Virus record (IMG/VR): IMGVR_UViG_3300030104_006801
Location: 13,785-55,558 of that record
Direction: 5' to 3' (one strand)
Length of the DNA: 41,774 bases
DNA from: a virus
Under the pieces are notes generated by a model. That model saw only the letters and a list, made by a program, of their open reading frames with translations. It was not told the DNA's origin and did no database searches. Every line of letters begins with the position of its first letter. Positions within the stretch are counted from its first letter, which is position 1. Below are positions 18,009-40,372 of this stretch, in pieces. The position numbers were made by a program, and so were the translations under genes.

Positions 18009-18010
18009 AT

Positions 18011-21257: not shown

Positions 21258-21259
21258 TA

Positions 21260-22426
21260 TTAACTTTGTAATTTCTTTAATTCTTCAGGATTCATTGCGT
21301 TTTCTTTAAAATATTGATTAACCCAATAAATTACATAGTCAATATCTTCTTCTGTCATAGCTGGATGTACTGGTAATGATACTAATTTTAACCATTCTTT
21401 ATCAGCTGCAGGAAATTCTCTATTTTTATGAGTCATATGTTTTTGAATAATTTCATACTTATGTAATGGCTTGAAATGTACTGATGTATGTACATTTTTT
21501 GATGCCAAATAATCAATTAAATCTGCTCTATGTTCGGCTGGAACTTTTGCACAGTAGTACTGAACTGTTTCTGTATGTGGAGGCCTTTCTACCTCGCTAC
21601 ATAGTTCTGCATTATACCTTTTTTGTACATGTCTTCTCCATTCTAACATTTGAGGTAATTTTTTCATTTGTTCTAAACATAATGTAGCTGTTAGATCTAT
21701 CATATAACATTTATAGCCTATCTTATCAACTTCATAATCCCAAGTATATCCAGGTTTACCAGTTACTGTATCTTCTTTTGCTACTCGTGAGAATGTAGAT
21801 GATACACCAAACCAAGTCATTTCTTTTAATTTATGATATAATTTTTCATCATTCAAAGTAATCATTCCTCCATCTCCACATGGCATTGTTTTAACTGCCT
21901 GGAACGACCAAACTGCTATATCACTAGCTTGTCCTGCTCCTGGAGTGTAACAGCTATGAGCACAATCTTCGATGATTAGTCCATCATAAAATTTTCTTAT
22001 TTCTTTGATAGGTGCTGGAACTCCTGCTTGATTAACTGCTATAATTGCTTTTGTATTTGGAGTAAGTGACTTACGTACATCTTCAGGATCTATACACATT
22101 GTATACGGATCAACATCTACTATATTTGTAGTTACATTTTCCTGCCATAATGGAATCATAGCAGTGGCCATAAATGATATAGTAGGATTAATTACATCTC
22201 CATCTTTAATATCTAATGCTTTCATCACTAAGTCTTGTCCATGAGAATTACTAGTAACAGCTACAGCATATTTTGCTCCAACCATCTCTGCAAATTCTTT
22301 TTCGAATTGATCAACTTTTGGTCCTTTTCCCCACCACCCACTATCGATGACTTCTTTTAATGCTTCTATTTCTTCCTTACCACCATATGGTCTAAGTACT
22401 GGTAACATATTTTTTCTAATTTTCAT
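21260..22426 (-). CDS. DegT/DnrJ/EryC1/StrS family sugar aminotransferase
   Basis: 388 residues, full length. It shows the PLP lysine K179 in WSFQAVKTMPCGDGG, the EDCAHS segment (153-158) with Asp154, and the N-terminal VTSNSHGQD and C-terminal VHFKPLHKY regions typical of nucleotide-sugar aminotransferases. These convert a keto-sugar to an amino-sugar with glutamate as the amino donor. A keto-substrate could come from CapE or a host dehydratase. It is the first gene of a segment behind a 59-nt gap with a promoter-like motif and an AAAGGA ribosome site. Confidence 0.87.
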   Translation of the reverse strand: MKIRKNMLPVLRPYGGKEEIEALKEVIDSGWWGKGPKVDQFEKEFAEMVGAKYAVAVTSNSHGQDLVMKALDIKDGDVINPTISFMATAMIPLWQENVTTNIVDVDPYTMCIDPEDVRKSLTPNTKAIIAVNQAGVPAPIKEIRKFYDGLIIEDCAHSCYTPGAGQASDIAVWSFQAVKTMPCGDGGMITLNDEKLYHKLKEMTWFGVSSTFSRVAKEDTVTGKPGYTWDYEVDKIGYKCYMIDLTATLCLEQMKKLPQMLEWRRHVQKRYNAELCSEVERPPHTETVQYYCAKVPAEHRADLIDYLASKNVHTSVHFKPLHKYEIIQKHMTHKNREFPAADKEWLKLVSLPVHPAMTEEDIDYVIYWVNQYFKENAMNPEELKKLQS

Positions 22427-22459
22427 ATATTCCTTTCTTTTAAAACTTTTTATTATTAC

Positions 22460-22482
22460 TTAATATATAAAATTTTTTTCAT
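22460..22482 (-). promoter_or_regulatory. Putative promoter, near match to TTG-N12-TATATTAA
   Basis: TATATTAA at 22460-22467 on the minus strand, with ATG instead of TTG exactly 12 nt upstream. It lies in the 59-nt gap before the aminotransferase gene, about 30 nt from its ATG. Confidence 0.45.
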
Positions 22483-22485
22483 ATA

Positions 22486-24339
22486 TCAAATTAATTTTTG
22501 GTAAAACTTCTTAAACACCTCATATAATTCTTCTGGTGGAGAATCATAAATTTCATTGTTTTTATATTTATCAAATATTTCTACTTTTTCTAAATTATTA
22601 GTTAAATCTCTTTCCCATTGAAATTTAAGTCTAAAACCTTCTGTATCTGTTTGTTGAGTGAATGTGGCTGCTCCTTTAATAAAAAATGGAAAACATGCAG
22701 TACCTGATGCTCCGTATATACTACATTTTGTTAATTGTAATAATGCAATTTGTCGTTCAACTGAATCTTTTCCTTTAAATATAATTCCTTTCAAATTTTC
22801 TGAGTTTTCAAATGTAAGAGATGCACCTGCACTACTACCTTCTTTTTGTTCGATTCCAATCATTACAACATTTACTTTCAAATCATTGATAAGATAATTT
22901 ATAAACGTTTTCCAATGTTCTGGGTTCCAGTCTAAATAACATGTTTTTCCAACTCTATTACGTATACGAGCCATTAACGCAACTGTTTCTCTATCATTAT
23001 CAAATTTTATTTCTTCTTTAACAGAACACATTATTTCATATGATGCGTTATAATGTTTATATTCTCCAAATGGTTGTTCTGATAATGTACGCTCTGATCC
23101 AAATGGAATATTTCCTGGAACATATAAGCTTATATCTTCATATTTATCTAAATAAGGCTGTCCTACCTCATTAACATATTCTAACAAATTTTCAGGAATA
23201 ATATCTTGATATTTTTCTACATCATGTTGGCCACATGTTGCTGGATATAATAATGTATCTTCTAATTCTTGAGTGTATGGTATATAGTTATCTATAAAAT
23301 CATCATATAATATTTTTCTGCCATTATAACCTACCATAAATGCATCGTAATCTTTAAAATTTTCGTTACGTAATTTACGTATCTCTGGTATCCACCAACT
23401 TAATTCATAACAAAATTCTCCACACCATGGTCCAAATATAACTAATTTTTTTAAACTAGATGTTTTAAACTCAATTGGTATATTTTTAGATGATAAATAA
23501 TTTGTTAAACTTTGTTCACTATCAGGTGACCATATAAACCCTCGTTCGCCTTCAATAAAATATGGTGTAACTCTATATGTATCAGATAATCTTACAGATT
23601 TATTTTCATAACCATTTTCATGACACCATTTCCAAAAATTTCTTCCTGGCGCGTTCCATGTTCCTAATATTGAAGTATTAATTTTATTTCCTGAAATTTC
23701 ATACGGTGTATTAACTTCATCTGTACGATTTAAATCAGTTCCTTCAGTTGTGATTGTTTTAAATACAGGTGCTAATTTATCTAACAACTCTCTACTTACA
23801 ACAGTAAATGATGTTCTTGGACACGTCGTACCTTGATGTACACCTGATGCTAGATGATGCCAATCATAATCTGGGTTTACTGAATTCATTACACTAGGAG
23901 ATGGATTTGTAATTAATGGTGCCTTTTTTTCTAATATATCTAAAAATAATCTATCATTCAGCATAAATGTGTCATCATGTGTATACATTATATAATCGTA
24001 TTGACTTTTATAATGTCGCTGAACCCATTGATTAAATAAATTTAAATCTCCTACATCATTAGGTTCTTCATTATACGTAAATCCAAAATCTTTTATTTCT
24101 TTTTTTGTAATAATTCGACCATATAATTGTTTATCAATATCTTGCAAGATACCTGTACCAAATTGTTGCATTAGTGGTTGTTTTTCTTCGTACACAATTT
24201 CTAATTCTGGGTCACGGTGAGATACTACAAATACATCAATATTCCAATTTTTTGGTATTTGTTGATTTTTTATCTGCTGATAAAATGAGTATGGATAATG
24301 CCATCCACTTATTACTACTGCTAATTTTTTATTTGTCAT
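22486..24339 (-). CDS. Two-domain putative glycosyltransferase
   Basis: 617 residues, the largest protein of the island. The N-terminal part (about 1-290) has a YDYIMYTHDDTFM segment (115-126) with the D-D metal pair of GT-A enzymes. From about residue 305 a new domain begins (LVIFGPWCGEFCYELSWW). It contains ETVALMARIRNRVGK near 465 and ends with KCSIYGASGTACFPFFIKG, similar to the C-terminal loop of the protein at 10480. It may add two sugars in sequence. The 24329 gene overlaps its start by 11 nt. Each half is only recognised at fold level. Confidence 0.62.
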   Translation of the reverse strand: MTNKKLAVVISGWHYPYSFYQQIKNQQIPKNWNIDVFVVSHRDPELEIVYEEKQPLMQQFGTGILQDIDKQLYGRIITKKEIKDFGFTYNEEPNDVGDLNLFNQWVQRHYKSQYDYIMYTHDDTFMLNDRLFLDILEKKAPLITNPSPSVMNSVNPDYDWHHLASGVHQGTTCPRTSFTVVSRELLDKLAPVFKTITTEGTDLNRTDEVNTPYEISGNKINTSILGTWNAPGRNFWKWCHENGYENKSVRLSDTYRVTPYFIEGERGFIWSPDSEQSLTNYLSSKNIPIEFKTSSLKKLVIFGPWCGEFCYELSWWIPEIRKLRNENFKDYDAFMVGYNGRKILYDDFIDNYIPYTQELEDTLLYPATCGQHDVEKYQDIIPENLLEYVNEVGQPYLDKYEDISLYVPGNIPFGSERTLSEQPFGEYKHYNASYEIMCSVKEEIKFDNDRETVALMARIRNRVGKTCYLDWNPEHWKTFINYLINDLKVNVVMIGIEQKEGSSAGASLTFENSENLKGIIFKGKDSVERQIALLQLTKCSIYGASGTACFPFFIKGAATFTQQTDTEGFRLKFQWERDLTNNLEKVEIFDKYKNNEIYDSPPEELYEVFKKFYQKLI

Positions 24340-24544
24340 ATTTAAAAACCTCTATACATAAAACATTTTTATCATTTATTAGAATATATCGCCCATCTGA
24401 TGATATTAATTTTGTAAATTGTCCTTGTTTTATAGTTTTAGTATCAACTCCTTCAAATGTTCGCTTTTCACCGCCAACAAAATGAATTATTTGAGTAACC
24501 CACTCTCCTTGTCGTTTTATTGATGATTGTAAATCAGTTACCAT
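24329..24544 (-). CDS. Small hypothetical protein
   Basis: 71 residues. A short beta-rich protein (QGEWVTQIIHFVGGEKRTFEG, then RYILINDKNVLCIEVF), with no membrane segment. The ATG at 24544 follows an AAGGA ribosome site at suitable distance; it overlaps its neighbours by 11 nt on each side. It is reminiscent of small conserved proteins of T4-like phages, but I cannot name a family. It may be unrelated to sugar metabolism and simply carried in the operon. Confidence 0.7.
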   Translation of the reverse strand: MVTDLQSSIKRQGEWVTQIIHFVGGEKRTFEGVDTKTIKQGQFTKLISSDGRYILINDKNVLCIEVFKYDK

Positions 24545-25457
24545 TTGTTAATTCCTTATATAAATTTAAAATTTGTAATCTTACTGCATTATAAGAAAAT
24601 GTATTCATACATGTTTCATATGCATATGATTGTACCTGATTTCTGTATTCTGAGTCAGATTCTAATTGTTTAATTTTTGCAACTAATTGATTTACATCTG
24701 TACCTGTTAATTCTGGAAATAATATTTTATGATTATCATTGTTTCCTCCTACCATAATAGTATTTAATACTGCACATTGCACACTTTGTATTCCTCCCAT
24801 GGTAGCTTTATCAGTACTTAGTAAGTATTTACATCTAGACCAACTTTTTATAAATGGTTGCAACCCTTTTTCTCCATTATGGTTAACTACTTCTAAATCT
24901 ATTTGTTTTAAAATTTCATCATTATTAGTTGAATGTCTACCTGCAACTTTTCTATTGTAATTAAAAATTGTTTCGTCCTTTTTAGTACCATATTTTTCTT
25001 GTAACAATTTATGATTAATAGGATGTGTAATCACATAAGCATTTTTTGGTTGTTCAAGTCCATGTAGATGATAAAAATCTATAGTTGGATATGGCTGAAT
25101 ATAAGCTTCTGTATTTCTGATAATATAATTACGTACAGATTCGTTATTATTCCAAATTTCTTTGTACATTCCTACAATAACTGCATTTGGATATAATTTT
25201 TTTAATACATGGAGATATTCAGGATTACATTCTATTGCTGCAAATATAAGATCAAATTGTTCGTCAGGATACACATTATTTGTTAGATTAATAAAATGTC
25301 CATCAAATAATGCTGGGTATGTCCAAAATGCGCTATACGGTAAATCTGTTGTTGTAACATCTTGGTTAGTTTCAGATCTATAAAATTTATTATCTTTACA
25401 ATAATATGATGGCTCAGCTGAATTATCTGTTGCAACTGCAAATTTTATGTTATTCAT
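24534..25457 (-). CDS. Putative GT-B-like glycosyltransferase
   Basis: 307 residues. The C-terminal half runs SWSRCKYLLSTDKATMGG, QSVQCAVLNTIMVGGNNDNH, ILFPELTG, then a helical TDVNQLVAKIKQLESDSEY tail. This is the order of strands and loops of the donor-binding half of GT-B enzymes, with a 'choose the target, boost the caller' loop and a final helix bundle. The N-terminal half has a FDLIFAAIECNPEYLHVLKK segment. No recognised family. It overlaps both neighbours by 8-11 nt. Confidence 0.55.
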   Translation of the reverse strand: MNNIKFAVATDNSAEPSYYCKDNKFYRSETNQDVTTTDLPYSAFWTYPALFDGHFINLTNNVYPDEQFDLIFAAIECNPEYLHVLKKLYPNAVIVGMYKEIWNNNESVRNYIIRNTEAYIQPYPTIDFYHLHGLEQPKNAYVITHPINHKLLQEKYGTKKDETIFNYNRKVAGRHSTNNDEILKQIDLEVVNHNGEKGLQPFIKSWSRCKYLLSTDKATMGGIQSVQCAVLNTIMVGGNNDNHKILFPELTGTDVNQLVAKIKQLESDSEYRNQVQSYAYETCMNTFSYNAVRLQILNLYKELTNGN

Positions 25458-26472
25458 TTGTAACTCCTTGTAAATTATTAAACATGTTGTAATAATACAT
25501 ACATAATTTTTCAGATGTAAATTCTTCTGAGTATTTTTTTCTTATATTGTATATAATTCTTTCATTTAATTCATTAAAATTACTATAAATATAATCAAGT
25601 TTTTCTTCTAGGTCTGACCAATCATATTTACATGGTATAAATGTTTCATTATCTATCATTAGATTTGGTAATGTATCAACTAATTCATGACTTGGTTTTA
25701 AAATTATTGTACCAAATACCATTGCTTCTAAATCACGAAAACAAAATTCACCCATACCATATGGAGATATACAAACTTTTGAACTCCATAATTGTTTAAC
25801 ATATTCTTGATATGGTAATTTTTCAGTTATCATAGAATATTGATTTTTCAAAGGTTGCAATTTATCCCATAATCCTGCTCTATGTTCAGTATACAATAAA
25901 TCATTACGTACGCTATGATCATAATTTTCTTTATGGTATGCTTGAAATATTGCACAAAGATCTATAGTTTTATTTGTATTAACTGGTTGCATTTGATGGT
26001 AGTTATTCCAATATCCTAAATTATTATGTGAAAATTTTATTCGGTTCCATTTATCTTTAGGAATATCATATGATAAATCTAAATCACTTCCTTTTCCAAA
26101 AAAGAATTTATTAAAAGCATATGGTATTTTATAATCTTCGCGATTTGGTAATAATTGATTTTTTAACAAATAGATTGCATTGCTTTGTTCAAATACTTCA
26201 TATGCTCCCATTAATGATGTAGAATCTGAACCATCGAATAAAAAATAATCTCCTGTTATTTTAGATAGATTATCTAAACCTTTATTTATACTATCTTGTA
26301 ATGGTATTGACTTGTCTATAAAATCATTCATTCCTACAAACAAATAATCATAATCATTCGATTCTGTTATATCAATGCTATAGTTACGCAACATATCTTT
26401 TACAACATAGAAAGGATTAAATGTAGGTCGATTTCTAGCAATAGTAGGATTTTGAATTTTTACCTTTATCAT
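25450..26472 (-). CDS. Putative GT-B glycosyltransferase (exostosin/GT4-like)
   Basis: 340 residues. The C-terminal region has LWSSKVCISPYGMGEFCFRD, then LEAMVFGTIILKP and DNETFIPCKYDWSDLEEKLDYI. This matches the usual end of exostosin/GT47- and GT4-like enzymes (serine-proline-G loop, then the E-A-x-x-x-G-x-x-x-x segment). The first strand is VKIQNPTIARN. The gene lies among other glycosyltransferases with 8- and 4-nt overlaps. Activity is inferred, not proven by a named motif. Confidence 0.65.
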   Translation of the reverse strand: MIKVKIQNPTIARNRPTFNPFYVVKDMLRNYSIDITESNDYDYLFVGMNDFIDKSIPLQDSINKGLDNLSKITGDYFLFDGSDSTSLMGAYEVFEQSNAIYLLKNQLLPNREDYKIPYAFNKFFFGKGSDLDLSYDIPKDKWNRIKFSHNNLGYWNNYHQMQPVNTNKTIDLCAIFQAYHKENYDHSVRNDLLYTEHRAGLWDKLQPLKNQYSMITEKLPYQEYVKQLWSSKVCISPYGMGEFCFRDLEAMVFGTIILKPSHELVDTLPNLMIDNETFIPCKYDWSDLEEKLDYIYSNFNELNERIIYNIRKKYSEEFTSEKLCMYYYNMFNNLQGVTNE

Positions 26473-27413
26473 AGTATTGTTTTATATTGTATAATTGATT
26501 TATCTAATCCATCTGACAATGTAGTATTTGGTTTCCAATTGGTAGTATCCTTAATTTTACTTGAATCAAGATATTGATGATTAATTTCTGGAAAATCTTT
26601 TTCTTTATAATTAATTAGTAATTTATTATTAATTTTAGATAATATCATAACAACTAGATCTCCAATAGAAATTATTTCGCCACTACCAATATTAAATGCT
26701 TCTCCTGCTGTTTTGTCTATATTTTTAACTAAAGACAAATACCCATCAACTGCATCTTCTATATATAAAAACTCTCTAATAGATTCTTCACTACCTTTCC
26801 ATATCATAGGAGACTTTCCTTGTAATGCTAATCTAATTGTATTTGGAATAATTCTAGACATATTCATATCGGCTCCACCATATAAATTAGAACATCTTGT
26901 AACAACAACAGGTAAATTATAGTTATAAAAATATGATCTTGCAATTAAATCTGTACATGATTTTGATACTTCATATACCCCTTGGCCATCCATAGGCGTA
27001 TTTTCAAGATATGGTAACTTACCTGAACCGTATGCTTTATCTGAACTACTCACTGCTATTGCTTTTACATTACCAAATATTCTTGCAGCTTCTAATATGT
27101 TTATAGTTCCTACTATATTTGTATCAAATGCTAATTTAGGATCTGGTTGACATTTCTTTACTTCTGATAAAGCTCCTAAATGAAATACCGTATCAAATTC
27201 ATATTCATTAAATAATAATTTGATGAATTCAAAATCTCTAATATCGCCTTGAACTATATTAATCTTACTAGTATCAATTCCTAAAGCTTTTAATGTAGTT
27301 TTTTGTTTAATATTTAATGTAACAATTGTTACACTTTCTGCATTAGGTAATACTCGCTTAGCAATATATGAACCTAAAAATCCTGTTCCTCCTGTAATTA
27401 ATATATTTTTCAT
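26469..27413 (-). CDS. NAD-dependent sugar epimerase/dehydratase
   Basis: 314 residues from the ATG at 27413. A longer frame adds 24 residues but overlaps the upstream gene, and the Rossmann motif MKNILITGGTGFLGSY argues for the shorter form. GGTGFLGS is at 8-15, SSSDKAYGSG at 122-131, and the catalytic Y147-x3-K151 (YEVSK) follows. The length and SSSDKAYG are like dTDP/CDP-glucose 4,6-dehydratase or epimerase branches (RfbB/RfbG-like). The product would be a keto-deoxy or epimerised nucleotide sugar for the island. Confidence 0.83.
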   Translation of the reverse strand: MKNILITGGTGFLGSYIAKRVLPNAESVTIVTLNIKQKTTLKALGIDTSKINIVQGDIRDFEFIKLLFNEYEFDTVFHLGALSEVKKCQPDPKLAFDTNIVGTINILEAARIFGNVKAIAVSSSDKAYGSGKLPYLENTPMDGQGVYEVSKSCTDLIARSYFYNYNLPVVVTRCSNLYGGADMNMSRIIPNTIRLALQGKSPMIWKGSEESIREFLYIEDAVDGYLSLVKNIDKTAGEAFNIGSGEIISIGDLVVMILSKINNKLLINYKEKDFPEINHQYLDSSKIKDTTNWKPNTTLSDGLDKSIIQYKTIL

Positions 27414-27418
27414 TTTGT

Positions 27419-28045
27419 TTAAATTGTTTCGTAAAATGCATTTTGAGCTTCTTGTCTTCCAATATTTTTTGGATGATATATGCAATAATTTTCTTCTGCA
27501 GGTAAATTTGCAAATTTAGTATAACCTTTTAATTGTTCATGTACTGGCTTTATCCAGTAAATATTTTCATCATTTCTATATATTCTCATTTGCCAGTCTG
27601 GAAAGTTTACCCAACCTTGGTCATCTACTCTCCATCCCCATTTTGCAATATGAGCTTCTGTTATTCCTGCTACTGTATTTACTCTAGGAACCCAATAAGC
27701 TTCTGTCTCTGCATTAGCTTCTAAAATAAACGGTAATGCTTCAATTAGATATTCATTAGGTATTTCATCTGCATCTATTTGAAATATCCAATTACCGTTA
27801 CAACTTTTGTTTAATTTATTTTTATATGCTGCAAAATTCTTATCCAATGCAAATTGATTAAGAGAATATTCTGATGCAGGTTTACTTTCAAACCTTTCAC
27901 ATACATCTATAACTTTTTGAGTTGCATTCATGTCCATTTGAACAACAACTTCATCTTCTCGTCGTTTATGTTCGAATAAAAATGTTAATAATTTTTCTAT
28001 TTCTTTATGCTCATTGCATACTGTAATTGCGTAACTAATTTTCAT
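27419..28045 (-). CDS. GT2-family glycosyltransferase
   Basis: 208 residues. The first strand SYAITVCNEHKEIEKLL is a standard family 2 opening; the donor metal motif D91-A-D93 sits in WIFQIDADEIPNEYL; the acceptor part has WVPRVNTVAG and a WGWRVDDQG stretch. It is shorter than many GT2 enzymes but contains the full catalytic fold. A conserved aspartate as catalytic base would be expected near 142-152. It overlaps the gene at 28035 by 11 nt. Confidence 0.82.
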   Translation of the reverse strand: MKISYAITVCNEHKEIEKLLTFLFEHKRREDEVVVQMDMNATQKVIDVCERFESKPASEYSLNQFALDKNFAAYKNKLNKSCNGNWIFQIDADEIPNEYLIEALPFILEANAETEAYWVPRVNTVAGITEAHIAKWGWRVDDQGWVNFPDWQMRIYRNDENIYWIKPVHEQLKGYTKFANLPAEENYCIYHPKNIGRQEAQNAFYETI

Positions 28046-28559
28046 TTTGCTTCTCCTGTGCTATTGTATAAAATGCATCTAATGCATTTTGGAAATCATA
28101 TCCTTCAAATTTTATTGCATTGTCAACATCTAATTTTGTAGTATAATATTCATCATCTCTACCTGGTATCGGATACTTTAATCTTTCATCTCCTTCTATA
28201 GGTATTACTTTTGATATACTCCAATTATAATCAGTTGGAGCTCCTCCTTTTCCTTCTGCATACATCATTACACCTGGCATTTGCATAAAAGTTGGATACC
28301 AAACCGTATTTAATACATTATCTATTAGTTTTAATTTAACCATCAATTCAGAACATCCTTGTTCAAATTGTTTACATGCATCTGAATTAAATACTAATGA
28401 TGTACGAGTAATGTATCCTGACTCCATACACATTCTATGCTCATCTCCTGTATTTGTATCCGCTTCAACTATTACGCATTTATTTTTTGTAATAGGTGAT
28501 ACTTCGTCATACTCTAAATTTATACCTGATTCGTTTTTTATTATTTCTATATCGCTCAT
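28035..28559 (-). CDS. Conserved hypothetical protein
   Basis: 174 residues, soluble, methionine- and aspartate-rich, with three cysteines at about 28, 44 and 62 and one further on. Segments such as WYPTFMQMPGVMMYAEGKGGAP and DERLKYPIPGRDDEYYTTKLD suggest a folded domain. It overlaps the GT4 gene (4 nt) and the GT2 gene (11 nt). I do not recognise it. It could be a partner of a glycosyltransferase or a cargo gene. Confidence 0.72.
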   Translation of the reverse strand: MSDIEIIKNESGINLEYDEVSPITKNKCVIVEADTNTGDEHRMCMESGYITRTSLVFNSDACKQFEQGCSELMVKLKLIDNVLNTVWYPTFMQMPGVMMYAEGKGGAPTDYNWSISKVIPIEGDERLKYPIPGRDDEYYTTKLDVDNAIKFEGYDFQNALDAFYTIAQEKQNEN

Positions 28560-29893
28560 GATTCAACCTTTTTTAATTTTGGTAATTTTAGCTTAGGTGC
28601 TTCTGATGTTTTATTGCTTCCTATTTTCTTTAACTTAGGTAATTGCAATGACATTTGTTGTGGTACATTTTTAATACCGTTATCTACATATTCACAGAAT
28701 AACTCTTTCATTTTATCTAAGCTAAAATTAGTTTTTATATGATGTGACTGTTTTCTACTTTTTTCTAAATATTTTTTATAGTTATCTTTTACATCAACAA
28801 GTATCTTTGATGCATATGAATAATTAACTGTAAACCATTGTGCTTCTTTTAATATAAATCTATCTGTTGCTGATGGATGCACTTGTGTCAATGTTCCAGG
28901 TAACATTATTCCATATTTTAGAAAATCTTTTTGTCCACTCCAATCGGATGCAATAATAGGTTTACCTGTCATACCAAATTCTGCTAATGGCCTACCAAAT
29001 CCTTCACCTTTTGTAAATGATACCATTGCTTTTACTTTAGGATGATTATACAATGAATTCATTTCATTATCAGTTAGATCGCCATGAAGTAAATATATAT
29101 TTGGTGCACGATCTCCATATGGATGAATTACTTCTTGAATTTTATTTGTTATATGATCGCGATCAATAATTGAGAATGTTGCATGAGATGTTTTAAGAAT
29201 TAGGCCTGGTCGATTCTTTTTTGCTTTATTTTTAAATGTTTCACAAAATGTTTTAATCATCATACCCGTATCTTTTCTATCCTGTCCTAACTGTCCATTC
29301 AACCAATGTCCTACATACAAATAACAAAAATCTTCTTTTATTTCATTTATTTCATCAAGTACTGGTTTTGCAATTGTTGATGTTTTTTTGTATATATTAA
29401 GATCAACACCTTCAAATAGTACTTCAATAGGCTTTTCTAATTTTAAATCGCCAACTTTTTGTTTTGTTTTTTCATCCATTTTATCAAAAACACTATGAAC
29501 AAATCCATTCTTTGAATGTTCGCTGGTAGTTAAAATTAAATCCATTTTATTACATCCTTGAAGAAATTCATGAGAAACTAATGTTGTTTCTATTCCAGCT
29601 GTAACACCTATGTTAAACTTGCCTCTAGCTTGGAATTCATTTGGAACTGAAATTTGAATAAATATGTCTGGTTGCTGATTTATATTTTGTCTTGCAATCT
29701 TTTCTTGTATTAATTTATGATCTTCATTATCTGCCTCTAAAGCATTCATAGGACATGAACCCCATGGTAATGATACTATTTTTATTTCATATTTATCTGC
29801 TTTAATTAATGATAATGCTAGATCTCTTGTATGGTTTCCATATCCTGATCTTGTTGCAACTGGTCCTTGTATTACTATAAATGGTTTTGTCAT
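28556..29893 (-). CDS. GT4-like glycosyltransferase with repeated LPKLKK tail
   Basis: 445 residues, GT-B. The first strand is followed by a GYGNHTRDLALSLI loop; the C-terminal half has YVGHWLNGQ, the KGEGFGRPLAEFG stretch with the E-x7-E glutamates, and GTLTQVHPS. This is a standard family 4 layout. The last ~35 residues are unusual: LQLPKLKKIGS and KLKLPKLKKVES, two copies of a short basic motif. The next upstream gene starts with a third copy (KLPKLKKINS). The motif may be a docking tag or a remnant of gene duplication. It overlaps both neighbours by 4 nt. Confidence 0.82.
   Translation of the reverse strand: MTKPFIVIQGPVATRSGYGNHTRDLALSLIKADKYEIKIVSLPWGSCPMNALEADNEDHKLIQEKIARQNINQQPDIFIQISVPNEFQARGKFNIGVTAGIETTLVSHEFLQGCNKMDLILTTSEHSKNGFVHSVFDKMDEKTKQKVGDLKLEKPIEVLFEGVDLNIYKKTSTIAKPVLDEINEIKEDFCYLYVGHWLNGQLGQDRKDTGMMIKTFCETFKNKAKKNRPGLILKTSHATFSIIDRDHITNKIQEVIHPYGDRAPNIYLLHGDLTDNEMNSLYNHPKVKAMVSFTKGEGFGRPLAEFGMTGKPIIASDWSGQKDFLKYGIMLPGTLTQVHPSATDRFILKEAQWFTVNYSYASKILVDVKDNYKKYLEKSRKQSHHIKTNFSLDKMKELFCEYVDNGIKNVPQQMSLQLPKLKKIGSNKTSEAPKLKLPKLKKVES
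28569..28586 (-). repeat. 18-nt repeat encoding LPKLKK, copy A
   Basis: TTACCAAAATTAAAAAAG on the minus strand near the end of the GT4-like gene. It is identical to a stretch at the start of the gene 29890-31347, in the same reading frame. Confidence 0.75.
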
Positions 29894-31347
29894 AATATAA
29901 CTCCTGGTTTTTCAATTTGTTTTCTTTGTTCAATTTTATATGTCGTGAATTTTTTTCTAGGTGTCCATTTTTCAAAACATTCACTAATACATTTTTCCAT
30001 CAATTCGCTCATTCCTTTTGCTGACATATAAGATTCAGTTCCATTAACCCATTCATGTCCAGCTAGGCCACATTCTTCTCTTTCTTCACTAGGCATGTTA
30101 TACCAATACATTATTGCATCTGCTATGTCTCTAAAATCTGCTCTATCATCAAATATGTATGGTGTTTGTGGCGAACCTTGCATTGATCTATTTGATGGAA
30201 ATACTGGTTTTACCCATTTTGCATGTTTCTTATATGTTCCATCATGGTTACTTGGAAAATCTGTCGTAAATTCTATCCAATCTCCATTTTCATCTTCAAA
30301 TCTACAACCATCTTGCAATCCTCCTGTTACATTATTAATAATTGGCGTTCCTGTATGTAATGATTCATTCCATGAAATACCAAATCCTTCATTGGATGCG
30401 ATGTTTATAGTTACATCTGCATTGTTGTAAAAATGATTTAATTGTTTTGTATCAACAGCTGTTGTAGAAAATATTACTTTATACTCTGGACATAATGCAT
30501 TCTTAACTGCTATTAAATCTGTTCCGTTATCATCCGATGCTTGTGTATGCATAAATAAAACACATTTTTCAGCTTTTTCTTTTGGAAGTTTATCACAAAA
30601 CGCTTTATATGATAAAATTAAATCACCTGGTTGTTTTCTTCTAATATTTCTATTATTCCAAAATACAACAAATTCAGCGTTATTTTGTGCTCTAAAATTT
30701 GTACGGAATTGTTCATATTCTGCCCAATCAGGTGACAATGGCGTTATTGGAAAAAAGTGCTTTGCATTTGCTCCATGCGGAACCCATTGAACTGCCCAAT
30801 CAGGTTTTGGATATTTTTGTAATACATTTTTTACAATATTATTTGTTTGTCTTGATATATTCATTAATAAATCACAAGATTCATAAAATGGTTCATTCCA
30901 ATGCGGATAAGGTAAATCATCCCATATGTTATAATACATTAATGGCATAGTTTGTCTAAGTTCATGCTCCATTGAATATAACCATCCCCAGAATCTTGGG
31001 TCTGTAAAATGTAAAATTGCATCTGGCTTTTCAATGTTTAATAATTCTTGTAATACTTGTGGATTACCATATCCGTTATGTGGATATACTTTAACATATG
31101 CATCTTCTACACCTGTTTCTTTTTGTACATCAGCTGAAATATCGATTATTTTTCCATGATCTGGATGTTTTACTGCTGCACCTAACTGTACCCAATCATA
31201 TTTGTCTACAGTTCCTAATACAAATTCTTTTGACATTGTTCCTATACCAGAAAACATTCTTAAATCGTCAGATAATAGTAAAATTTTCTTTTTAGTACGC
31301 CTGTTTGAATTGATCTTTTTTAATTTTGGTAACTTTATTGGTTCCAT
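29890..31347 (-). CDS. GT4-like glycosyltransferase starting with LPKLKK motif
   Basis: 485 residues. It begins MEPIKLPKLKKINSNRRTKKK, a basic segment holding the LPKLKK motif shared with the tail of the next gene. The GT-B body starts KILLLSDDLRMFSGIGTMS. The donor half includes VFWNNRNIRRKQPGDLI, CVLFMHTQASDDNG and INIASNEGFGISWNESLHTG, where the E-x7-E pair of GT4 enzymes is seen. The N-terminal half has YYNIWDDLPYPHWNEPFYES. It is the first gene of the glycan island, behind a 55-nt gap with a good promoter-like motif and an AGAGGAA ribosome site. Confidence 0.82.
   Translation of the reverse strand: MEPIKLPKLKKINSNRRTKKKILLLSDDLRMFSGIGTMSKEFVLGTVDKYDWVQLGAAVKHPDHGKIIDISADVQKETGVEDAYVKVYPHNGYGNPQVLQELLNIEKPDAILHFTDPRFWGWLYSMEHELRQTMPLMYYNIWDDLPYPHWNEPFYESCDLLMNISRQTNNIVKNVLQKYPKPDWAVQWVPHGANAKHFFPITPLSPDWAEYEQFRTNFRAQNNAEFVVFWNNRNIRRKQPGDLILSYKAFCDKLPKEKAEKCVLFMHTQASDDNGTDLIAVKNALCPEYKVIFSTTAVDTKQLNHFYNNADVTINIASNEGFGISWNESLHTGTPIINNVTGGLQDGCRFEDENGDWIEFTTDFPSNHDGTYKKHAKWVKPVFPSNRSMQGSPQTPYIFDDRADFRDIADAIMYWYNMPSEEREECGLAGHEWVNGTESYMSAKGMSELMEKCISECFEKWTPRKKFTTYKIEQRKQIEKPGVIL
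31315..31332 (-). repeat. 18-nt repeat encoding LPKLKK, copy B
   Basis: TTACCAAAATTAAAAAAG, identical to copy A near 28569 and in the same frame, at codons 6-11 of the gene starting at 31347. Confidence 0.75.
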
Positions 31348-31402: not shown

Positions 31403-31588
31403 TTAACCTTTCATTTTTTTGAAAATAAATTTGTCAATTGGCCAAAATATACATGCTCCTACAAATTGAAATCCAATTACTGTTGCAAGGTTTGACCAAC
31501 CTAAAATATCTGAAAACAGATACATGCATGGCCATGATACAATTATACCTAATTGCCATTTGGCATGATATGTTAAATATTTCTTCAT
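31403..31588 (-). CDS. Small two-helix membrane protein
   Basis: 61 residues. Two hydrophobic stretches, about 12-30 (QLGIIVSWPCMYLFSDILG) and 36-53 (ATVIGFQFVGACIFWPID), with basic residues at both ends (MKKY, KFIFKKMKG), predict a hairpin with both ends on the cytoplasmic side. I associate this type of small protein with T4-like marine phages, but no function is known to me. It overlaps the SLOG gene by 4 nt and ends the transcription block before the glycan-island promoter. Confidence 0.78.
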   Translation of the reverse strand: MKKYLTYHAKWQLGIIVSWPCMYLFSDILGWSNLATVIGFQFVGACIFWPIDKFIFKKMKG

Positions 31589-31986
31589 GTTATTATTGTT
31601 ACTGGTTTATTTAATTTTTTAGCCGATTTGATTGCACTTTCACTTCCATTTGCAGTTAATCCATTTGGTATAAATGCCATCATAACATCACATGCTTTTG
31701 CTATCAACATATTTCTATGATGAAATTGTGATACATGATACGGCTTGTCATAATAATTATCTGACATTGCAGAATATAAATTTTTAGTTGTATGAGCTGG
31801 ATTAAATTCTTGATATTTTATTCCAAACTCTAATGCATACTTTCTTACAAATTTATCTGCTCCATATTGAGCTCCGCCTGATATAACAATTAGATCAGTT
31901 CCAAATTTTTGCTTAAGTTGAAATAACGCATCTTTTATCTTACGCGTATTTTCATACTCTCTACTGCCTATTATTGCTACTCTCAT
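31585..31986 (-). CDS. SLOG/DUF2493-like Rossmann nucleotide-binding protein
   Basis: 133 residues. MRVAIIGSREYENTRKIK is the characteristic opening of DUF2493/YAcAr proteins of the SLOG superfamily. VISGGAQYGADKFVRKYA (35-52) is the G-G-A-x-x-G-A-D loop that binds a nucleotide or nucleotide sugar derivative. FIPNGLTANGSESAI near the end matches the family's G-T-x-x-S/T loop. These proteins sense or process nucleotide-derived ligands. The role in phages is unclear; some sit near defence or counter-defence genes. It overlaps the upstream gene by 26 nt, but the motif starts right at this ATG. Confidence 0.8.
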   Translation of the reverse strand: MRVAIIGSREYENTRKIKDALFQLKQKFGTDLIVISGGAQYGADKFVRKYALEFGIKYQEFNPAHTTKNLYSAMSDNYYDKPYHVSQFHHRNMLIAKACDVMMAFIPNGLTANGSESAIKSAKKLNKPVTIIT

Positions 31987-33156: not shown

Positions 33157-33555
33157 TCATTTACCCCATTTTTTTGCAGAAACTATCTGTGCAATAATAC
33201 CATATATAGATAGATCTTGAAACGTATCTTGTTCAGATTCTCCAACTTCATCTTTATGACCTAATACAATTAATTGTTTTAATCTTTGAATTTTATCATT
33301 TAATCTAAACCATAAACCTGTTAGTGATAATTTTATATCATCTGGAGTTTCTAAATTAGTTCCTACTGATATATTACCTGGGCCATAATTTTTTTGCTTT
33401 TTACAAAACATCTCGTATTGTTCTTGCATTATCTTTTTAAATTCATTACATGTTTCTGGAAAATGTTCTTCACAATAATTAATTGCATGATGTGATGCTG
33501 TGGTATTATCTACTTCTTGAAACTTGACTCTAGGTTGATCTTTTATTGTTTTCAT
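33157..33555 (-). CDS. DUF1599 / Nmad1-like protein
   Basis: 132 residues. A helical protein with FKKIMQEQYEMFCKKQKNYGPGN (38-60), LTGLWFRLNDKIQRLKQL and GESEQDTFQDLSIYGIIAQI. This is the pattern of DUF1599, also called nucleotide modification associated domain 1, known from phages and linked by context to modified-base metabolism. In this operon a TGT/DpdA-like enzyme lies seven genes upstream, which fits that link. Conserved acidic and aromatic residues are in place. The substrate is unknown. It overlaps gp62 by 4 nt. Confidence 0.8.
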   Translation of the reverse strand: MKTIKDQPRVKFQEVDNTTASHHAINYCEEHFPETCNEFKKIMQEQYEMFCKKQKNYGPGNISVGTNLETPDDIKLSLTGLWFRLNDKIQRLKQLIVLGHKDEVGESEQDTFQDLSIYGIIAQIVSAKKWGK

Positions 33556-33998
33556 TTTAATAACTTTTTTATTTCTTTTTCTGTTTTACCGTACATTGTT
33601 AATAACTTATTCAAATGGTTTGGACCGCCGCTTGTATTCTTAAATAAATCAACATATTCTTCAGCTTCTCGAGAATTAACATTATAATGATTTGCAATAA
33701 GTTTTACAAGGTCTTTATTATATTTATTCATTTTTTTTCCTTTAATGTACTTTGCTCTAACATTAGCATTTGGTAGTATATCATAATACAATTGATATAC
33801 ATGTTTTTTACTTAAAGGTCCAATTGTATATCGTTGTAGTAAATCAATTGTTTCAATTAAGTCAGGATGCATCGACAGCCATCTATTAATAATATATGGA
33901 GTAAACGATTTTTGATCAGTTTCTGATAACTGATTCCATTCTTTTTTCTTATGAGTTATACCTGCTATATGATCAAATATTGTTGCTGGTTTTTTCAT
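33552..33998 (-). CDS. gp62: Clamp loader small subunit gp62-like
   Basis: 148 residues. The MKKPATIFDHIAGITHKKKEWNQL opening, PYIINRWLSMHPDLIETIDLLQ and a PLSKKHVYQLYYDILP segment match gp62-type subunits of T4-like marine phages. In the clamp-loader complex gp62 is the single partner of four gp44 ATPases that load gp45. It is shorter than T4's (187). It is separated from gp44 here by GroEL and a zinc ribbon gene, whereas in T4 44 and 62 are adjacent. It starts one base after groEL ends. Confidence 0.8.
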   Translation of the reverse strand: MKKPATIFDHIAGITHKKKEWNQLSETDQKSFTPYIINRWLSMHPDLIETIDLLQRYTIGPLSKKHVYQLYYDILPNANVRAKYIKGKKMNKYNKDLVKLIANHYNVNSREAEEYVDLFKNTSGGPNHLNKLLTMYGKTEKEIKKLLK

Positions 33999-33999: not shown

Positions 34000-35637
<1,638 letters not shown>

Positions 35638-35890: not shown

Positions 35891-36820
35891 TTATTTTAAT
35901 TCGTTGATTAACTTTACCATTGTAGCCATTATATGTAATTCTTTATCAACTGCAAATGCATCTTGATATTGTGATTCAGCTAATATCAATATAACACTTG
36001 CTATATGCCCTTTAGCATATTCATCAATTTCATCAAATAAAAATTTATATAATGCAGTAAAATCTTTTACTTTACTATCGTTAATTAATTGTCTTACATT
36101 TTGAAAACAAGTTTTTTTATCATTAGTATTTTGTAAAATATCTAATAACTTAGTCATATAATTTGCTTGGACTAAACTTTCTTTATCAATTTGTAATTTA
36201 CCATCAATAACTTGACGTTGAGCAGAATTAAGTACTCTTCTAATATCTGGGTATCCATTATTTATTAATGTTACCAAATCTTCCATTTCAAATTGAATAT
36301 CTTGTTCTTTTAATATATCAACAATCCTTTTTGCAACTTCTTTTTTATTAGGCGGAGTTATTCCAAATACTTGACATCTAGATTGAATTGGGTCAATAAT
36401 TTTCTCAACATAATTACATGTTAAAATAAATCTAGTTGTCTTTGAAAATGTTTCCATTAAATTTCTTAATGCAGCTTGTCCGTTTGGAGTCATATAATCT
36501 GCCTCATCTAATATAACAATCTTCCATCTTTTGAATCCAATTGTACTTGCAAAATTCTTTACTTTAGTTCTAACTGTTTCGACATTGTTTTCATCGGATG
36601 CATTTATATACATAATATCTGCATCTACATTGCCTGCAATAATTTTTGCTAAAGTTGTTTTACCAGTTCCTGCACCACCATAAAATAACAAATGCGGAAC
36701 ATCTCCATTTTCAAGGTATAATTTTACTTTGCTGATAATTAATTCATTACCAACATATCCATCTAATGTTCCAGGCCTAAACTTTTCTACCCATAATGTA
36801 TTTTCTACGTTTCCAAACAT
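35891..36820 (-). CDS. gp44: Clamp loader large subunit gp44 (AAA+ ATPase)
   Basis: 309 residues, close to T4 gp44 (319). It begins LWVEKFRPGTLDGYVG, the usual clamp loader opening. Walker A GGAGTGKTT is at 48-56, Walker B ILDEAD at 103-108, sensor 1 at FILTCN (131-136), and the SRC arginine finger motif at 147-149. The C-terminal collar domain is present. Four copies with gp62 load the clamp onto primer-template. It starts one base after the stop of gp45. Confidence 0.95.
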   Translation of the reverse strand: MFGNVENTLWVEKFRPGTLDGYVGNELIISKVKLYLENGDVPHLLFYGGAGTGKTTLAKIIAGNVDADIMYINASDENNVETVRTKVKNFASTIGFKRWKIVILDEADYMTPNGQAALRNLMETFSKTTRFILTCNYVEKIIDPIQSRCQVFGITPPNKKEVAKRIVDILKEQDIQFEMEDLVTLINNGYPDIRRVLNSAQRQVIDGKLQIDKESLVQANYMTKLLDILQNTNDKKTCFQNVRQLINDSKVKDFTALYKFLFDEIDEYAKGHIASVILILAESQYQDAFAVDKELHIMATMVKLINELK

Positions 36821-36821: not shown

Positions 36822-37541
36822 TTATGCTGCTTGTAATTGTACTAAATAGTACGTTGATGAATAATCTTTTCCTGTAAATGTAACTCTTGCTAATCCTGCA
36901 CCAGATACTTCAATATAACCTGCTTCTGCATCTTTGTTTGCAACTAATATTTCTTTAAATAAGTTAGCTGAAAAACAAGTAGCTTTTAAGTCTGTAGATT
37001 CTCCTTCAGGTTTAGTTGGCCATGTAATTCTATTTGTATTCAAAGTTGAATAATTTAAAATCATATTAGTTCCTAATGCATCACTTTCAATTGCAAAATT
37101 CTCTGTTTCTGGTAATGCATTTTTAGATTTAACAAATTTATCTGCAAAATCTTTTGTTAAATTAATCTTAACATTAAAGTCTGGTAATTGTTTCATTGCC
37201 GGAACTTGTCTGATTACTGATAAATCAGCTAGCATAAATGTTACATCTGTTGTTGAATCAGATAAATTAATTGAAAATGCAGTTCCGTCTGCATTATTTA
37301 CTCTTAATTTAATATCATTATCTAATGCAGTTAATAACTTTGTTAATTGAGATGTTGCATAAACACCTAATGTTACATCTTCGATATCAAAATTATCCAT
37401 TGATACCGTACCTACTACGTTTTGGTCATCTGTAATAAAATTACATGACATTTTTTTATCTTTAATATCTAACCTAACAGAATTTGCATTACCTGCTAAA
37501 TGATACTTATCGATAAAACTTGTTAATTGTTTCTTTTCCAT
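36822..37541 (-). CDS. gp45: Sliding clamp gp45
   Basis: 239 residues (T4 gp45 is 228). Position before gp44, size and the two-part beta-rich layout fit the clamp: LTSFIDKYHLAG, SMDNFDIEDVTLGVY, MLADLSVIRQVPAM, then a second half ending LARVTFTGKDYSSTYYLVQ. It forms a trimeric ring that tethers the polymerase and in T4 also activates late transcription. It is placed 12 nt after the TGT-like gene, so it is likely co-transcribed with it. Confidence 0.9.
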   Translation of the reverse strand: MEKKQLTSFIDKYHLAGNANSVRLDIKDKKMSCNFITDDQNVVGTVSMDNFDIEDVTLGVYATSQLTKLLTALDNDIKLRVNNADGTAFSINLSDSTTDVTFMLADLSVIRQVPAMKQLPDFNVKINLTKDFADKFVKSKNALPETENFAIESDALGTNMILNYSTLNTNRITWPTKPEGESTDLKATCFSANLFKEILVANKDAEAGYIEVSGAGLARVTFTGKDYSSTYYLVQLQAA

Positions 37542-37553: not shown

Positions 37554-38738
37554 TTATTCGAAAAATTGATTAAATACTTCATTGTTTACTAAATCTCTTG
37601 TACTACCACCAAACTTATCATACAATTGTCTATTCTTGTTATAGATATGAATTGCTTTGTCTGGGTCCTGAAACATTTCTTCCATACTCATTAGTATTGC
37701 ATAGAAGTCTCTAGGAACTACTGTTTGTAATAATTCATTATGACATTTTACTATTTCTTCTACTTGTTTAACAGTTTCATTAAATACAAATAAATTATTT
37801 AATGTCATTTTCATTGTTACTGGACCTTTATAATTTGATACTTCACCAAATGTCATTCCTTCTGATACAGGATGTCCTAATGGATTAGGAACTAAATCAT
37901 CTGCGTTATACGGAAGATTTTCTCCTTTTGGAAAATATAAATCTGTAAAAGTCATTTTACTTAATTGAGGTGAATGTAAATAAGTTCCATATACTGGATA
38001 TAACCCAGGAGAACTTGAATCTGTTGATATTTGTATTCTACCTCCATGATATTTGTTTACCATCTTTTGAAAGAAGCTTAACATAAAGAAATCTGATATT
38101 TTAGAAATACCCAGAACATGTACAAATTGATTTCTAGCTTTTTCAAATTCTCTATTCTTTATCATTGGTACTAATGCAGACATAAACATAGTTACTCTTT
38201 TTTGAGCTCCACCAATACACCAACCATTAAATTCAAAGTCTTTCATTTTCTGATACCATGCTTCGTATTCTTCAACATTATTACCTTGAATGACATTTAA
38301 GAACTTACATTTACCAGATTGATTATCTGCAAAATATTTGAAGTTGTCATAACTAATATCCATACATTCAAAAAACTTTCCATCATATTTTGCTCTAGGT
38401 GGGATATCTAAATTAACTCCTAAATCACAATTTGTTTCTAACCAATCAAATATAGTTTTCTTAAATGACGGATCCCATTTAATTGCTCCAGTAGCTAACT
38501 GGAATCCTCCAGAATCTCCTAATACTAAAACATCATCTTCTAATCCATATCTTTGTCTTGCATCTGCCCATTTATAATGATGGCCAGCTGTAATTAAGAA
38601 GTATGGATGTCTCCATCTTTCAGGAAAATCTTTATCATAAAATCTACATGATAGGCCTGGCTTAACTTCTTTGTTTTTCTTAAAGTCTCCGGCACATCCT
38701 CCTGCAGATAATGATGGGTAATAAATTAAATCTTTCAT
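37554..38738 (-). CDS. TGT/DpdA-like DNA or tRNA base transglycosylase
   Basis: 394 residues from the ATG at 38738, which has a GGAG site 6 nt upstream; a TTG four codons earlier is less likely. Motifs of the queuine tRNA-ribosyltransferase fold appear in order: VLGDSGGFQ (first Asp at about 75), NVIQGN (about 149-154), WCIGGAQ (about 173-179), VLGISKISD, then QISTDSSS with a probable nucleophile Asp240. The family swaps guanine for a 7-deazaguanine. Phage members of this type (DpdA) act on DNA and give dPreQ0, dG+ and related bases. No preQ0 synthesis genes are in the window; they may lie elsewhere or be supplied by the host. The preceding glycosyltransferase gene ends one base before this ATG, suggesting linked roles. 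Confidence 0.8.
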   Translation of the reverse strand: MKDLIYYPSLSAGGCAGDFKKNKEVKPGLSCRFYDKDFPERWRHPYFLITAGHHYKWADARQRYGLEDDVLVLGDSGGFQLATGAIKWDPSFKKTIFDWLETNCDLGVNLDIPPRAKYDGKFFECMDISYDNFKYFADNQSGKCKFLNVIQGNNVEEYEAWYQKMKDFEFNGWCIGGAQKRVTMFMSALVPMIKNREFEKARNQFVHVLGISKISDFFMLSFFQKMVNKYHGGRIQISTDSSSPGLYPVYGTYLHSPQLSKMTFTDLYFPKGENLPYNADDLVPNPLGHPVSEGMTFGEVSNYKGPVTMKMTLNNLFVFNETVKQVEEIVKCHNELLQTVVPRDFYAILMSMEEMFQDPDKAIHIYNKNRQLYDKFGGSTRDLVNNEVFNQFFE

Positions 38739-38739
38739 T

Positions 38740-39951
38740 CTAATCTCCAAATAATTCTAATTGTCTTCTTTCTATTTCTTTTTTATGATCTTCTTGTGCT
38801 AATAATGATTCACATAATTCTTTTTCATGCCATATGCATAATTCATTTTCATAATCATTGGCAATAATATAACCTTCCATTTGTCTTCCTAAATCAGATC
38901 TATTAACTATATGTGGATGTACTTTAGGAGATTCTAATGCTTCTTCAATAGTTTCTAATGCATCTTTAACATCAAATGGTTTATACATTCTATCTACATC
39001 TATAAACTCTGGAAAACTTCTAAAGAATGGAAATACTATATCTGCTCCAAATGCTGTCGATTCAATAACCGTCCATGATACATAATCTTGTAATGCTGAA
39101 TTGAATTGTATTTTACAAGTTGCTAGTTCTGTATAATATTCTTCTTTTGTTAATCCTGTCAATAATTTAAATCTTGGTTGTTCTTCAGCTAATTTTTCTA
39201 ACGCATCTATAACACCTGGTAACATACTTTTGAATGCTTTACCTGATGTAGTTACATGCCATTCATAATTTGGATGATTTTGTAGAAATGCTTCTGCTAC
39301 TTTCATCATAAAGAAAGGATTTTTTTCTTTATCTAATCTAGATGAATATACTATTGTATTTTTCTTTTTATATTCACCATATGGTAGTTTTGATAATGTA
39401 GCTTCTTTATGTATTGGTAACGATACAACATGTATAGGAGCTTCAAATCCAGCTGCTCTTAATTGTTCTTTATGAATAGAACTACCTACAAATATACCAG
39501 TTAATCTTTTATCTAAACCTAATTCATATGGCCTCATCCAATCTTTCATAGGATATGTAAAATCATATTCATCAACTGATTGGGCATGTAACATTGTATA
39601 TACCTTTACATTCTTATAACCATACAGGTCTAATGCATACCATATGGCTTCGACTCCTGGTGTCCAAAAGTCTTGCAAGAATATTATATCACCATCTTGA
39701 ACTTTATCATTATACAGCATCTGTAAGAAGTTTTGACATTGAGATAAACTATACTTACCTCTACCAATAGCATCTAATACTGCTCCAACTTTAATTTCAC
39801 AATCAGGATCAAAATCACCTTCTACATCAATAAAGTTTAATGTATCTGAATATTTTTCAAATGTTTTAGGCATCCATTCTTTACATAATTGATATGTATA
39901 CCTTGCTTTTAATGGCTCTAGGCCAAAGTAAAATAAATTTCTTTTTTCCAT
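38740..39951 (-). CDS. GT-B glycosyltransferase beside the TGT-like gene
   Basis: 403 residues. A GT-B protein with VYSSRLDKEKNPFFMMKVAE at the start of the donor domain (about 207-226), HVTTSGKAFKSM, LTKEEYYTELATCKIQFN, then SALQDYVSWTVIESTAFGAD with the expected glutamate. It resembles GT4 enzymes. Unlike the island glycosyltransferases, it lies in the replication operon, between a hypothetical gene (one-base gap) and the TGT-like gene (one-base gap). A DNA-base glycosyltransferase is a plausible role, as with T4 alpha- and beta-glucosyltransferase, but a cell-surface role cannot be excluded. There is no signal or membrane segment. Confidence 0.78.
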   Translation of the reverse strand: MEKRNLFYFGLEPLKARYTYQLCKEWMPKTFEKYSDTLNFIDVEGDFDPDCEIKVGAVLDAIGRGKYSLSQCQNFLQMLYNDKVQDGDIIFLQDFWTPGVEAIWYALDLYGYKNVKVYTMLHAQSVDEYDFTYPMKDWMRPYELGLDKRLTGIFVGSSIHKEQLRAAGFEAPIHVVSLPIHKEATLSKLPYGEYKKKNTIVYSSRLDKEKNPFFMMKVAEAFLQNHPNYEWHVTTSGKAFKSMLPGVIDALEKLAEEQPRFKLLTGLTKEEYYTELATCKIQFNSALQDYVSWTVIESTAFGADIVFPFFRSFPEFIDVDRMYKPFDVKDALETIEEALESPKVHPHIVNRSDLGRQMEGYIIANDYENELCIWHEKELCESLLAQEDHKKEIERRQLELFGD

Positions 39952-39952: not shown

Positions 39953-40372
39953 TTATTCTTTTATTCTATCAAATTTATAATCATCTGGATTAATTTCCAT
40001 CATATTACATTTGGTAATTTGATGTACTCTATACCATCCAGCATCTATAGACAATGTATCTGTTTGTTTAAGTTTTGCAACATGAGAATCTTCAATCCTA
40101 TATATTACATGAGCTCTATTAAATATAGACATTGGAATTTTATCCATTGTCTTTGCATTTGCTTCAACTGTAACATATTGTTTAGTTTCTAAGATATTAT
40201 GAATTTCGTCCCAATTACCATGAACACATGCCATTTCTATATATTCTATTGTAAAGTAGATATGCGGATAATCTTTATAATTTTTAGGAACAGATCCTCT
40301 TACAAATACTGTTTCAATATCAGATAATCTACCTTCTACTTCTTTTCCATACCAATAACTTTTTCCGTACAT
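39953..40372 (-). CDS. Conserved hypothetical, first gene of the TGT/clamp operon
   Basis: 139 residues, soluble, rich in aromatic residues (YGKSYWYGKEVEGRLSD at the start), with a central FTIEYIEMACVHGNWDE helix and a KTMDKIPMSIFNRAHVIYRIED part. The single 62-nt gap before it holds the clearest promoter-like motif of the window, so it is the first gene of this operon. It is followed by a glycosyltransferase after one base. No known motif. A role with the base-modification genes is possible by position. Confidence 0.75.
   Translation of the reverse strand: MYGKSYWYGKEVEGRLSDIETVFVRGSVPKNYKDYPHIYFTIEYIEMACVHGNWDEIHNILETKQYVTVEANAKTMDKIPMSIFNRAHVIYRIEDSHVAKLKQTDTLSIDAGWYRVHQITKCNMMEINPDDYKFDRIKE

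Follow-up and report, generated by a model that had tools for sequence, protein, structure and literature searches.

A glycosyltransferase (GT) and a tRNA-guanine-transglycosylase-like enzyme (TGT), encoded side by side in this virus, are likely to carry out the final steps of a phage pathway for glycosylated 7-deazaguanine in DNA. Computation gave both folds, the catalytic residues, the operon, the co-occurrence of genes, the absence of QueC and, in this phage group, the lack of a hydroxymethylcytosine pathway; that DNA would be the substrate, and which acceptor atom and linkage, sugar, order of steps and protection would be involved, we infer. The window, that is, the whole stretch of 41,774 nucleotides analysed here, covers positions 13785-55558 of a 55,558-base virus record.

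The gene pair and its two enzymes

At the high end of the window, the minus strand carries the DNA polymerase gene, truncated where the contig stops, then genes for proteins of 106 and 139 aa, then GT and TGT (Table 1), followed by a gene in the sliding-clamp position, the clamp loader large subunit, a Zn-ribbon gene, GroEL and the clamp loader small subunit. FolE, QueD, QueE and HGPRT are encoded just past the polymerase in relatives, and they are missing from the window only because its contig breaks off within that gene. According to the original prediction, the GT-B gene ends one base before the transglycosylase gene in the same operon. Re-reading of the junction (...GGA GAT TAG A ATG...) bore this out, with exactly one base between the GT stop and the TGT start codon. 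This ATG, at 38738, is also where the proteins of relatives begin; a TTG at 38750 was rejected as the start, since it would overlap the GT gene. The four motifs on which the prediction drew are all present in the TGT protein: GDSGGFQ (aa 74-80), NVIQGN (148-153), CIGGA (174-178) and TDSSS (239-243).

Table 1. Features of the replication operon surrounding the GT and TGT genes (window coordinates)
Feature	Coordinates	Strand	Remarks
TGT/DpdA-type base transglycosylase, 394 aa	37554..38738	-	catalytic Asp75 (DSGGFQ), Asp240 (TDSSS)
GT-B / GT4-type glycosyltransferase, 403 aa	38740..39951	-	R205, K210, D289, E297 invariant in family
139-aa protein directly upstream of GT	39953..40372	-	hhalign to 174-aa protein
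Protein in sliding-clamp position adjoining TGT	36822..37541	-	lies close to gp44/gp62; profile match
Clamp loader large subunit (gp44-like)	35891..36820	-	PHROG 168, E 4e-81
Clamp loader small subunit (gp62-like)	33552..33998	-	Pfam/PHROG search
Family-B DNA polymerase, C-terminal part, cut by contig end	40780..41772	-	

The gene following the TGT had been named gp45. Its position beside a gp44-type clamp loader agrees with that name, but the protein has no Pfam or PHROG match and no profile match to T4-type gp45, so that a direct assignment failed. What remains is the position, together with a match, by profile comparison (E 1e-5), to the protein that holds the clamp position in a second phage clade. 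The 139-aa protein upstream of the GT, which matched nothing in the family libraries searched, gave a suggestive hhalign score (E 1e-4) against a 174-aa protein encoded beside the TGT in that second clade, and the two are probably homologous judging from their sequences. Members of this 139- to 174-aa family occur alongside the two enzymes in the window's own marine clade (39953-40372), the second clade (L176, 6430-6948) and Acidovorax phage ACP17 (L156, 6248-6733), and may be a third component of the modification machinery. Within the replication operon, the phage also encodes a bacterial-type GroEL (34000-35634), and in a relative a GroES-like gene lies beside FolE (L021, 4098-4400). The same operon region holds, at 33157-33555 and 31585-31986, a DUF1599 'nucleotide modification associated' protein (sub-threshold Pfam match) and a SLOG/YspA-type protein.

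The matches of the TGT sequence are weak, but all are to families of TGTs, with NCBIfam TgtA at E 1e-3 and DpdA at E 1.6e-3, and 19 searched members of its family matched TgtA, DpdA and tgt_general only. PDB sequence searches with single proteins and family profiles returned nothing beyond chance for either TGT or GT, which made a comparison of folds necessary. The AlphaFold model of the TGT (pTM 0.84) adopts the TIM-barrel TGT fold, and its Foldseek matches were archaeosine TGT (1j2b, E 3.5e-10), DpdA (7ui4, E 1.8e-8) and the Z. mobilis TGT (E 1e-7), with a Cap10-CdnD structure ranked lower (E 2e-3). Asp75, in the motif DSGG(F/L)Q, and Asp240 are the counterparts of the catalytic aspartate pair of TGTs; they are invariant in 14 sequences across subfamilies and are kept even in the alignment with DpdA2 of KVP40, pf16 and Moby. 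The fold, the motifs and the aspartate pair are thus in line with the DpdA-type enzyme originally predicted, but at 17.3 bits the protein falls short of the curated DpdA cut-off (NF041059, 200 bits). Because it misses this cut-off and, by sequence, constitutes a separate, remote TGT/DpdA subfamily, the name 'DpdA' stands here as a functional inference.

The GT model (pTM 0.78) has a GT4-type GT-B fold, whose best PDB matches were BshA (3mbo, E 4e-11) and SenB, with MshA also among them; T4 AGT and BGT were not among the 50 best. These nearest solved relatives use small-molecule acceptors, not DNA. In a comparison with predicted structures of viral proteins, the GT matched best an unnamed viral protein and its counterpart in ACP17 (E 1e-18), the next match reaching only E 2e-9. 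The sequence scores 22.4 bits against a Pfam PF00534 gathering score of 26.4. The Arg/Lys donor-binding pair (R205, K210) and E297 are invariant in the GT family, whereas the first Glu of the EX7E motif is replaced by an invariant D289 in the window's clade and is kept in X1, ACP17, PA5oct and Phosso.

Conservation of the pairing across phage lineages

The window's clade comprises 81 distinct GT sequences. The TGT is the next neighbour of the GT in all 77 clade contigs with room downstream, an adjacency that partly reflects common descent inside one clade. A search for folE, queD, queE and queC had been proposed with the original prediction. The window's contig stops before the region concerned, and the FolE-QueD-QueE set that goes with DpdA was found through relatives with longer contigs: among the 18 reaching 7 kb upstream, FolE and QueE are present in 18, QueD in 17, HGPRT in 12 and QueC in none. 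These 18 include L004, which has the upstream genes and whose TGT is 99% identical to the window's. Two short contigs of the window's phage group (L258 and L259, GTs 96% and 73% identical) come from metagenome-assembled genomes labelled Candidatus Nitrosopelagicus. Since both have a GC content of 29%, like the window, composition-driven misbinning is the likely source of the archaeal label; the phage GroEL is of bacterial type.

A second large environmental clade was defined by the GT type of Synechococcus phage BUCT-ZZ01, with at least 599 contigs in IMG/VR. Gene content was surveyed in the best 80 of these. In 74, there is a TGT that belongs to the same subfamily as the window's (33-54% identical), the rest being cut off upstream; QueD-like proteins were found in 75, FolE in 59, a phosphoribosyltransferase in 46 and QueC in none. 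A sugar epimerase/dehydratase directly follows the GT in 75 of the same 80, and a cytidylyltransferase and a UDP-glucose-dehydrogenase-like protein are encoded in 45 and 40, respectively. The gene order (clamp-position gene, TGT, 174-aa gene, QueD-like, GT, epimerase ... FolE) is unlike that of the window. Moreover, one and the same GT clade occurs with two TGT subfamilies, DpdA2-type in BUCT-ZZ01 and window-type in the second-clade contigs. The pairing has therefore been kept through rearrangement and enzyme replacement, as a shared pathway predicts.

Six further lineages of cultured phages have relatives of the GT in their 7-deazaguanine gene clusters. A search of 50,697 phage records with the window's GT protein matched nine, and all nine also encode a TGT. 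Because DpdA-type records number only 226, 70 or 28 out of the 50,697, according to which of three query enzymes is used, this coincidence is far above chance; the GT-TGT pairing is not a chance one. BUCT-ZZ01 encodes QueE, a guanine phosphoribosyltransferase, QueD, FolE, a second GT, a DpdA2-type TGT, a small protein and the GT. The small protein, which has no Pfam match, can be read as QueD-like from its HxH-type T-fold sequence. The order is FolE, GT, TGT, QueD-like and QueE in X1, and QueD, FolE, TGT, GT, QueD-like and QueE in ACP17. The partner transglycosylases of X1, BUCT-ZZ01 and ACP17 group with DpdA2 of KVP40 and nt-1, and the A3 profile matched nt-1 DpdA2, with no match to the transglycosylases of CP220 and 9g. 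In the PA5oct group (11 records including phi30-3, reached with the X1 and PA5oct-group GTs as queries), the TGT overlaps the GT by one base; over viral contigs, the X1 and PA5oct GTs retrieved no close relatives. In Phosso, the GT sits together with FolE and QueE, and the TGT lies 170 kb away.

PhiXhv and Ep032 carry a remote GT, which in PhiXhv-12 adjoins Gat-QueC and a PIG-L deacetylase. The PhiXhv cluster was considered as an amino-sugar cluster and rejected as such when a family search identified its 'GlmS-like' gene as a Gat-QueC fusion. The row of Gat-QueC fusion, PIG-L-type deacetylase and remote GT4 in Xanthomonas phage PhiXhv-12 (L163, 3654-6888) looks like GlcNAc transfer followed by de-N-acetylation in a deazaguanine cluster.

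A reading in which the two enzymes act apart is unlikely. The TGT would place an unglycosylated 7-deazaguanine in DNA (dCDG, or dPreQ0 by way of host QueC), and the GT would merely share the early operon, its own targets being, say, glycans of the host, proteins of the virion or a different base in DNA. That GT4 enzymes are common in phages, that several GTs are encoded in a glycan island elsewhere in the window and that the closest solved GT folds belong to small-molecule enzymes all fit such a separation. It accounts poorly, however, for the TGT in nine out of nine GenBank phage records with the GT, for the Phosso GT staying with FolE/QueE rather than with the TGT, and for one GT clade keeping company with two TGT subfamilies in differing gene orders; nor does the window's group have a T4-type hydroxymethyl-pyrimidine synthase to provide another acceptor.

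The probable modified base and its polymer

No QueC above the cut-off was found in 20 records retrieved through the window's group, in BUCT-ZZ01, ACP17, phi30-3, Phosso and X1 (a 16-bit sub-threshold match in the last), or in 12 second-clade records, one of which gave a partial 23-bit match. In contrast, QueC is present in the DpdA phages Moby, pf16, KVP40, GR7B and Voja, all of which lack the GT. PhiXhv, with its remote GT and Gat-QueC fusion, is the exception to this split. Counted by lineage, QueC occurs in one out of seven with the GT versus four out of four without it (p about 0.015). The GT phages of the main family thus lack a complete preQ0 pathway of their own, and for this reason the last base made by the phage is probably 7-carboxy-7-deazaguanine, not preQ0. 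The preQ0-derived base of the original prediction is accordingly disfavoured, although host QueC could possibly supply preQ0. Hutinet et al. (PMC6884629) considered that a phage lacking QueC alone might carry 7-carboxy-7-deazaguanine.

Glucosylation of hydroxymethylcytosine was considered as another route. PF00303 (thymidylate synthase/dCMP hydroxymethylase) was matched in none of the 20 records of the window's group, which include incomplete contigs; within that limit, the route is ruled out for this group. Among 13 other GT-bearing records, three have a PF00303 match and ten have none. A common 7-deazaguanine DNA pathway for the DpdA-type enzyme and the GT, as first proposed, is thus strongly supported by their conserved adjacency, the co-occurrence of FolE, QueD and QueE in unrelated phages and the lack of a hydroxymethylcytosine route in the window's group, but its base is probably not derived from preQ0.

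DNA would be the target of the pair, as suggested by the location of the TGT between the polymerase and clamp-position genes; DpdA adjoins the clamp in phage 9g too. The DNA of nt-1, a DpdA2 phage, contains dPreQ0/dADG/dG+ (PMC6884629), and in a related Vibrio phage, dPreQ1 makes up 15% of dG in DNA (PMC12028318). The window's TGT could instead act on tRNA or protein. In the first case, 7-deazaguanine would be put into tRNA and glycosylated there, as in the mannosyl- and galactosyl-queuosine of animals. The top structural match of the TGT is indeed a tRNA enzyme, archaeosine TGT 1j2b, and animal tRNA is known to contain queuosine with an attached sugar (PMC12518689). We nevertheless regard this as highly improbable, given that in three clades the gene lies in a replisome operon and adjoins the one in the clamp position, an arrangement shared by DpdA of 9g, that the DpdA2-type partners of the GT family have relatives proven to act on DNA (PMC6884629, PMC12028318), and that the queuosine-specific QueA, QueG and QueH were absent from the viruses analysed by Hutinet et al. 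(PMC6884629).

It is also very unlikely that the genes serve counter-defence through a glycosylated free 7-deazaguanine, comparable with huimycin, or through transfer by the TGT to a protein, comparable with CBASS Cap9/Cap10. A huimycin GT does reside in a FolE-QueD-QueE-QueC cluster, where it is proposed to add GlcNAc to a preQ0-derived base (PMC7439116), and the Cap10-CdnD structure appears among the lower-ranked fold matches of the TGT (E 2e-3). A free sugar-bearing metabolite, however, would need neither the two catalytic aspartates nor the base-exchange fold, both of which are kept, and the replisome linkage and the proven DNA role of DpdA2 relatives weigh against both variants.

Proposed pathway and its closest known counterparts

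In the glycosylated-DNA pathway that we favour, the phage FolE, QueD and QueE would convert GTP to 7-carboxy-7-deazaguanine. Working alongside the replication machinery, the transglycosylase would form a covalent intermediate through Asp240 and replace guanines of the DNA with the deaza base; the guanine set free may be salvaged by a co-encoded guanine phosphoribosyltransferase. The GT4 enzyme would then transfer a sugar from a nucleotide sugar to the deaza base. With no phage QueC to convert it, the exposed 7-carboxylate would be the likeliest acceptor, giving a glycosyl ester; in the second clade, the donor would come from the sugar epimerase encoded beside the GT. Being bulky, the sugar would block host nucleases, as glucose on T4 hydroxymethylcytosine does. 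That many phages exchange guanine for 7-carboxy-7-deazaguanine and esterify its carboxylate with a sugar, the GT replacing QueC, is a tentative extension and, on balance, doubtful.

If true, this would be both the first glycosyl-ester DNA base and the first glycosylated 7-deazaguanine DNA base. Full-text searches of the open literature, as distinct from subscription papers and preprints, found no report of glycosylated 7-deazaguanine in DNA, which falls short of proving novelty. The known 7-deazaguanine bases of phages carry small groups (cyano, amido, aminomethyl and formamidino). A sugar on this base would unite base exchange with DNA glycosylation, which are separate strategies, and should protect the DNA strongly from restriction and perhaps from Cas nucleases too. 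The gene set is very common, one clade alone accounting for at least 599 environmental contigs, and can be recognised by a simple genome marker, a transglycosylase and a window-type GT without QueC. Since it is present in isolates (the PA5oct group, ACP17, X1, BUCT-ZZ01 and Phosso), the claim is testable on existing virions.

Phages with DpdA or DpdA2 (9g, CAjan, nt-1 and KVP40) resemble the present system in combining FolE, QueD and QueE with a TGT-fold enzyme in the replication region. The GT phages differ from them in lacking QueC and having a dedicated glycosyltransferase, and the window's TGT in belonging to a separate, remote subfamily. The glucosyl-hydroxymethylcytosine system of T4 (AGT, BGT) likewise has a modified base that receives a sugar from a nucleotide sugar through a phage GT-B enzyme, whereas here the deazaguanine would enter by exchange after replication, the window's group has no dCMP hydroxymethylase and the GT is nearest to BshA/SenB. 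Huimycin (Kutzneria albida) shares FolE-QueD-QueE, a glycosyltransferase and a sugar on a pyrrolopyrimidine base, but it is a free metabolite, whose pathway has QueC and a methyltransferase and no transglycosylase. Carboxymethylcytosine, made by CmoX/CmoY in Synechococcus phage S-B43, offers a precedent for a DNA-base carboxylate as the handle for hypermodification (PMC12783734), although the base is cytosine and the decoration an amide ligation to glycine, not a glycosyl transfer.

Several further genes touch on supply and decoration. Guanine/hypoxanthine-type phosphoribosyltransferases recur (L021, 5060-5566; L154, 3090-3551; L158, 11769-12203) in the marine clade, BUCT-ZZ01, the PA5oct group and the second clade (46 of the best 80), perhaps to recycle the guanine that base exchange sets free. 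In BUCT-ZZ01, another GT4 gene, different from the first, is found between FolE and the transglycosylase (L154, 5007-6350), so two sugars may be added there. Stenotrophomonas phage Moby has an annotated myo-inositol-3-phosphate synthase between FolE and QueC (L164, 9454-10704), which makes inositol decoration possible in its deazaguanine cluster. The glycan island of the window (14474-31347) encodes WbqC, a PIG-L deacetylase, a methyltransferase, a radical SAM/SPASM protein, a DegT aminotransferase, a dTDP-glucose-4,6-dehydratase-like protein, a GT2 and several GT4 enzymes, and could be either the source of an unusual nucleotide sugar or a means of surface-glycan remodelling.
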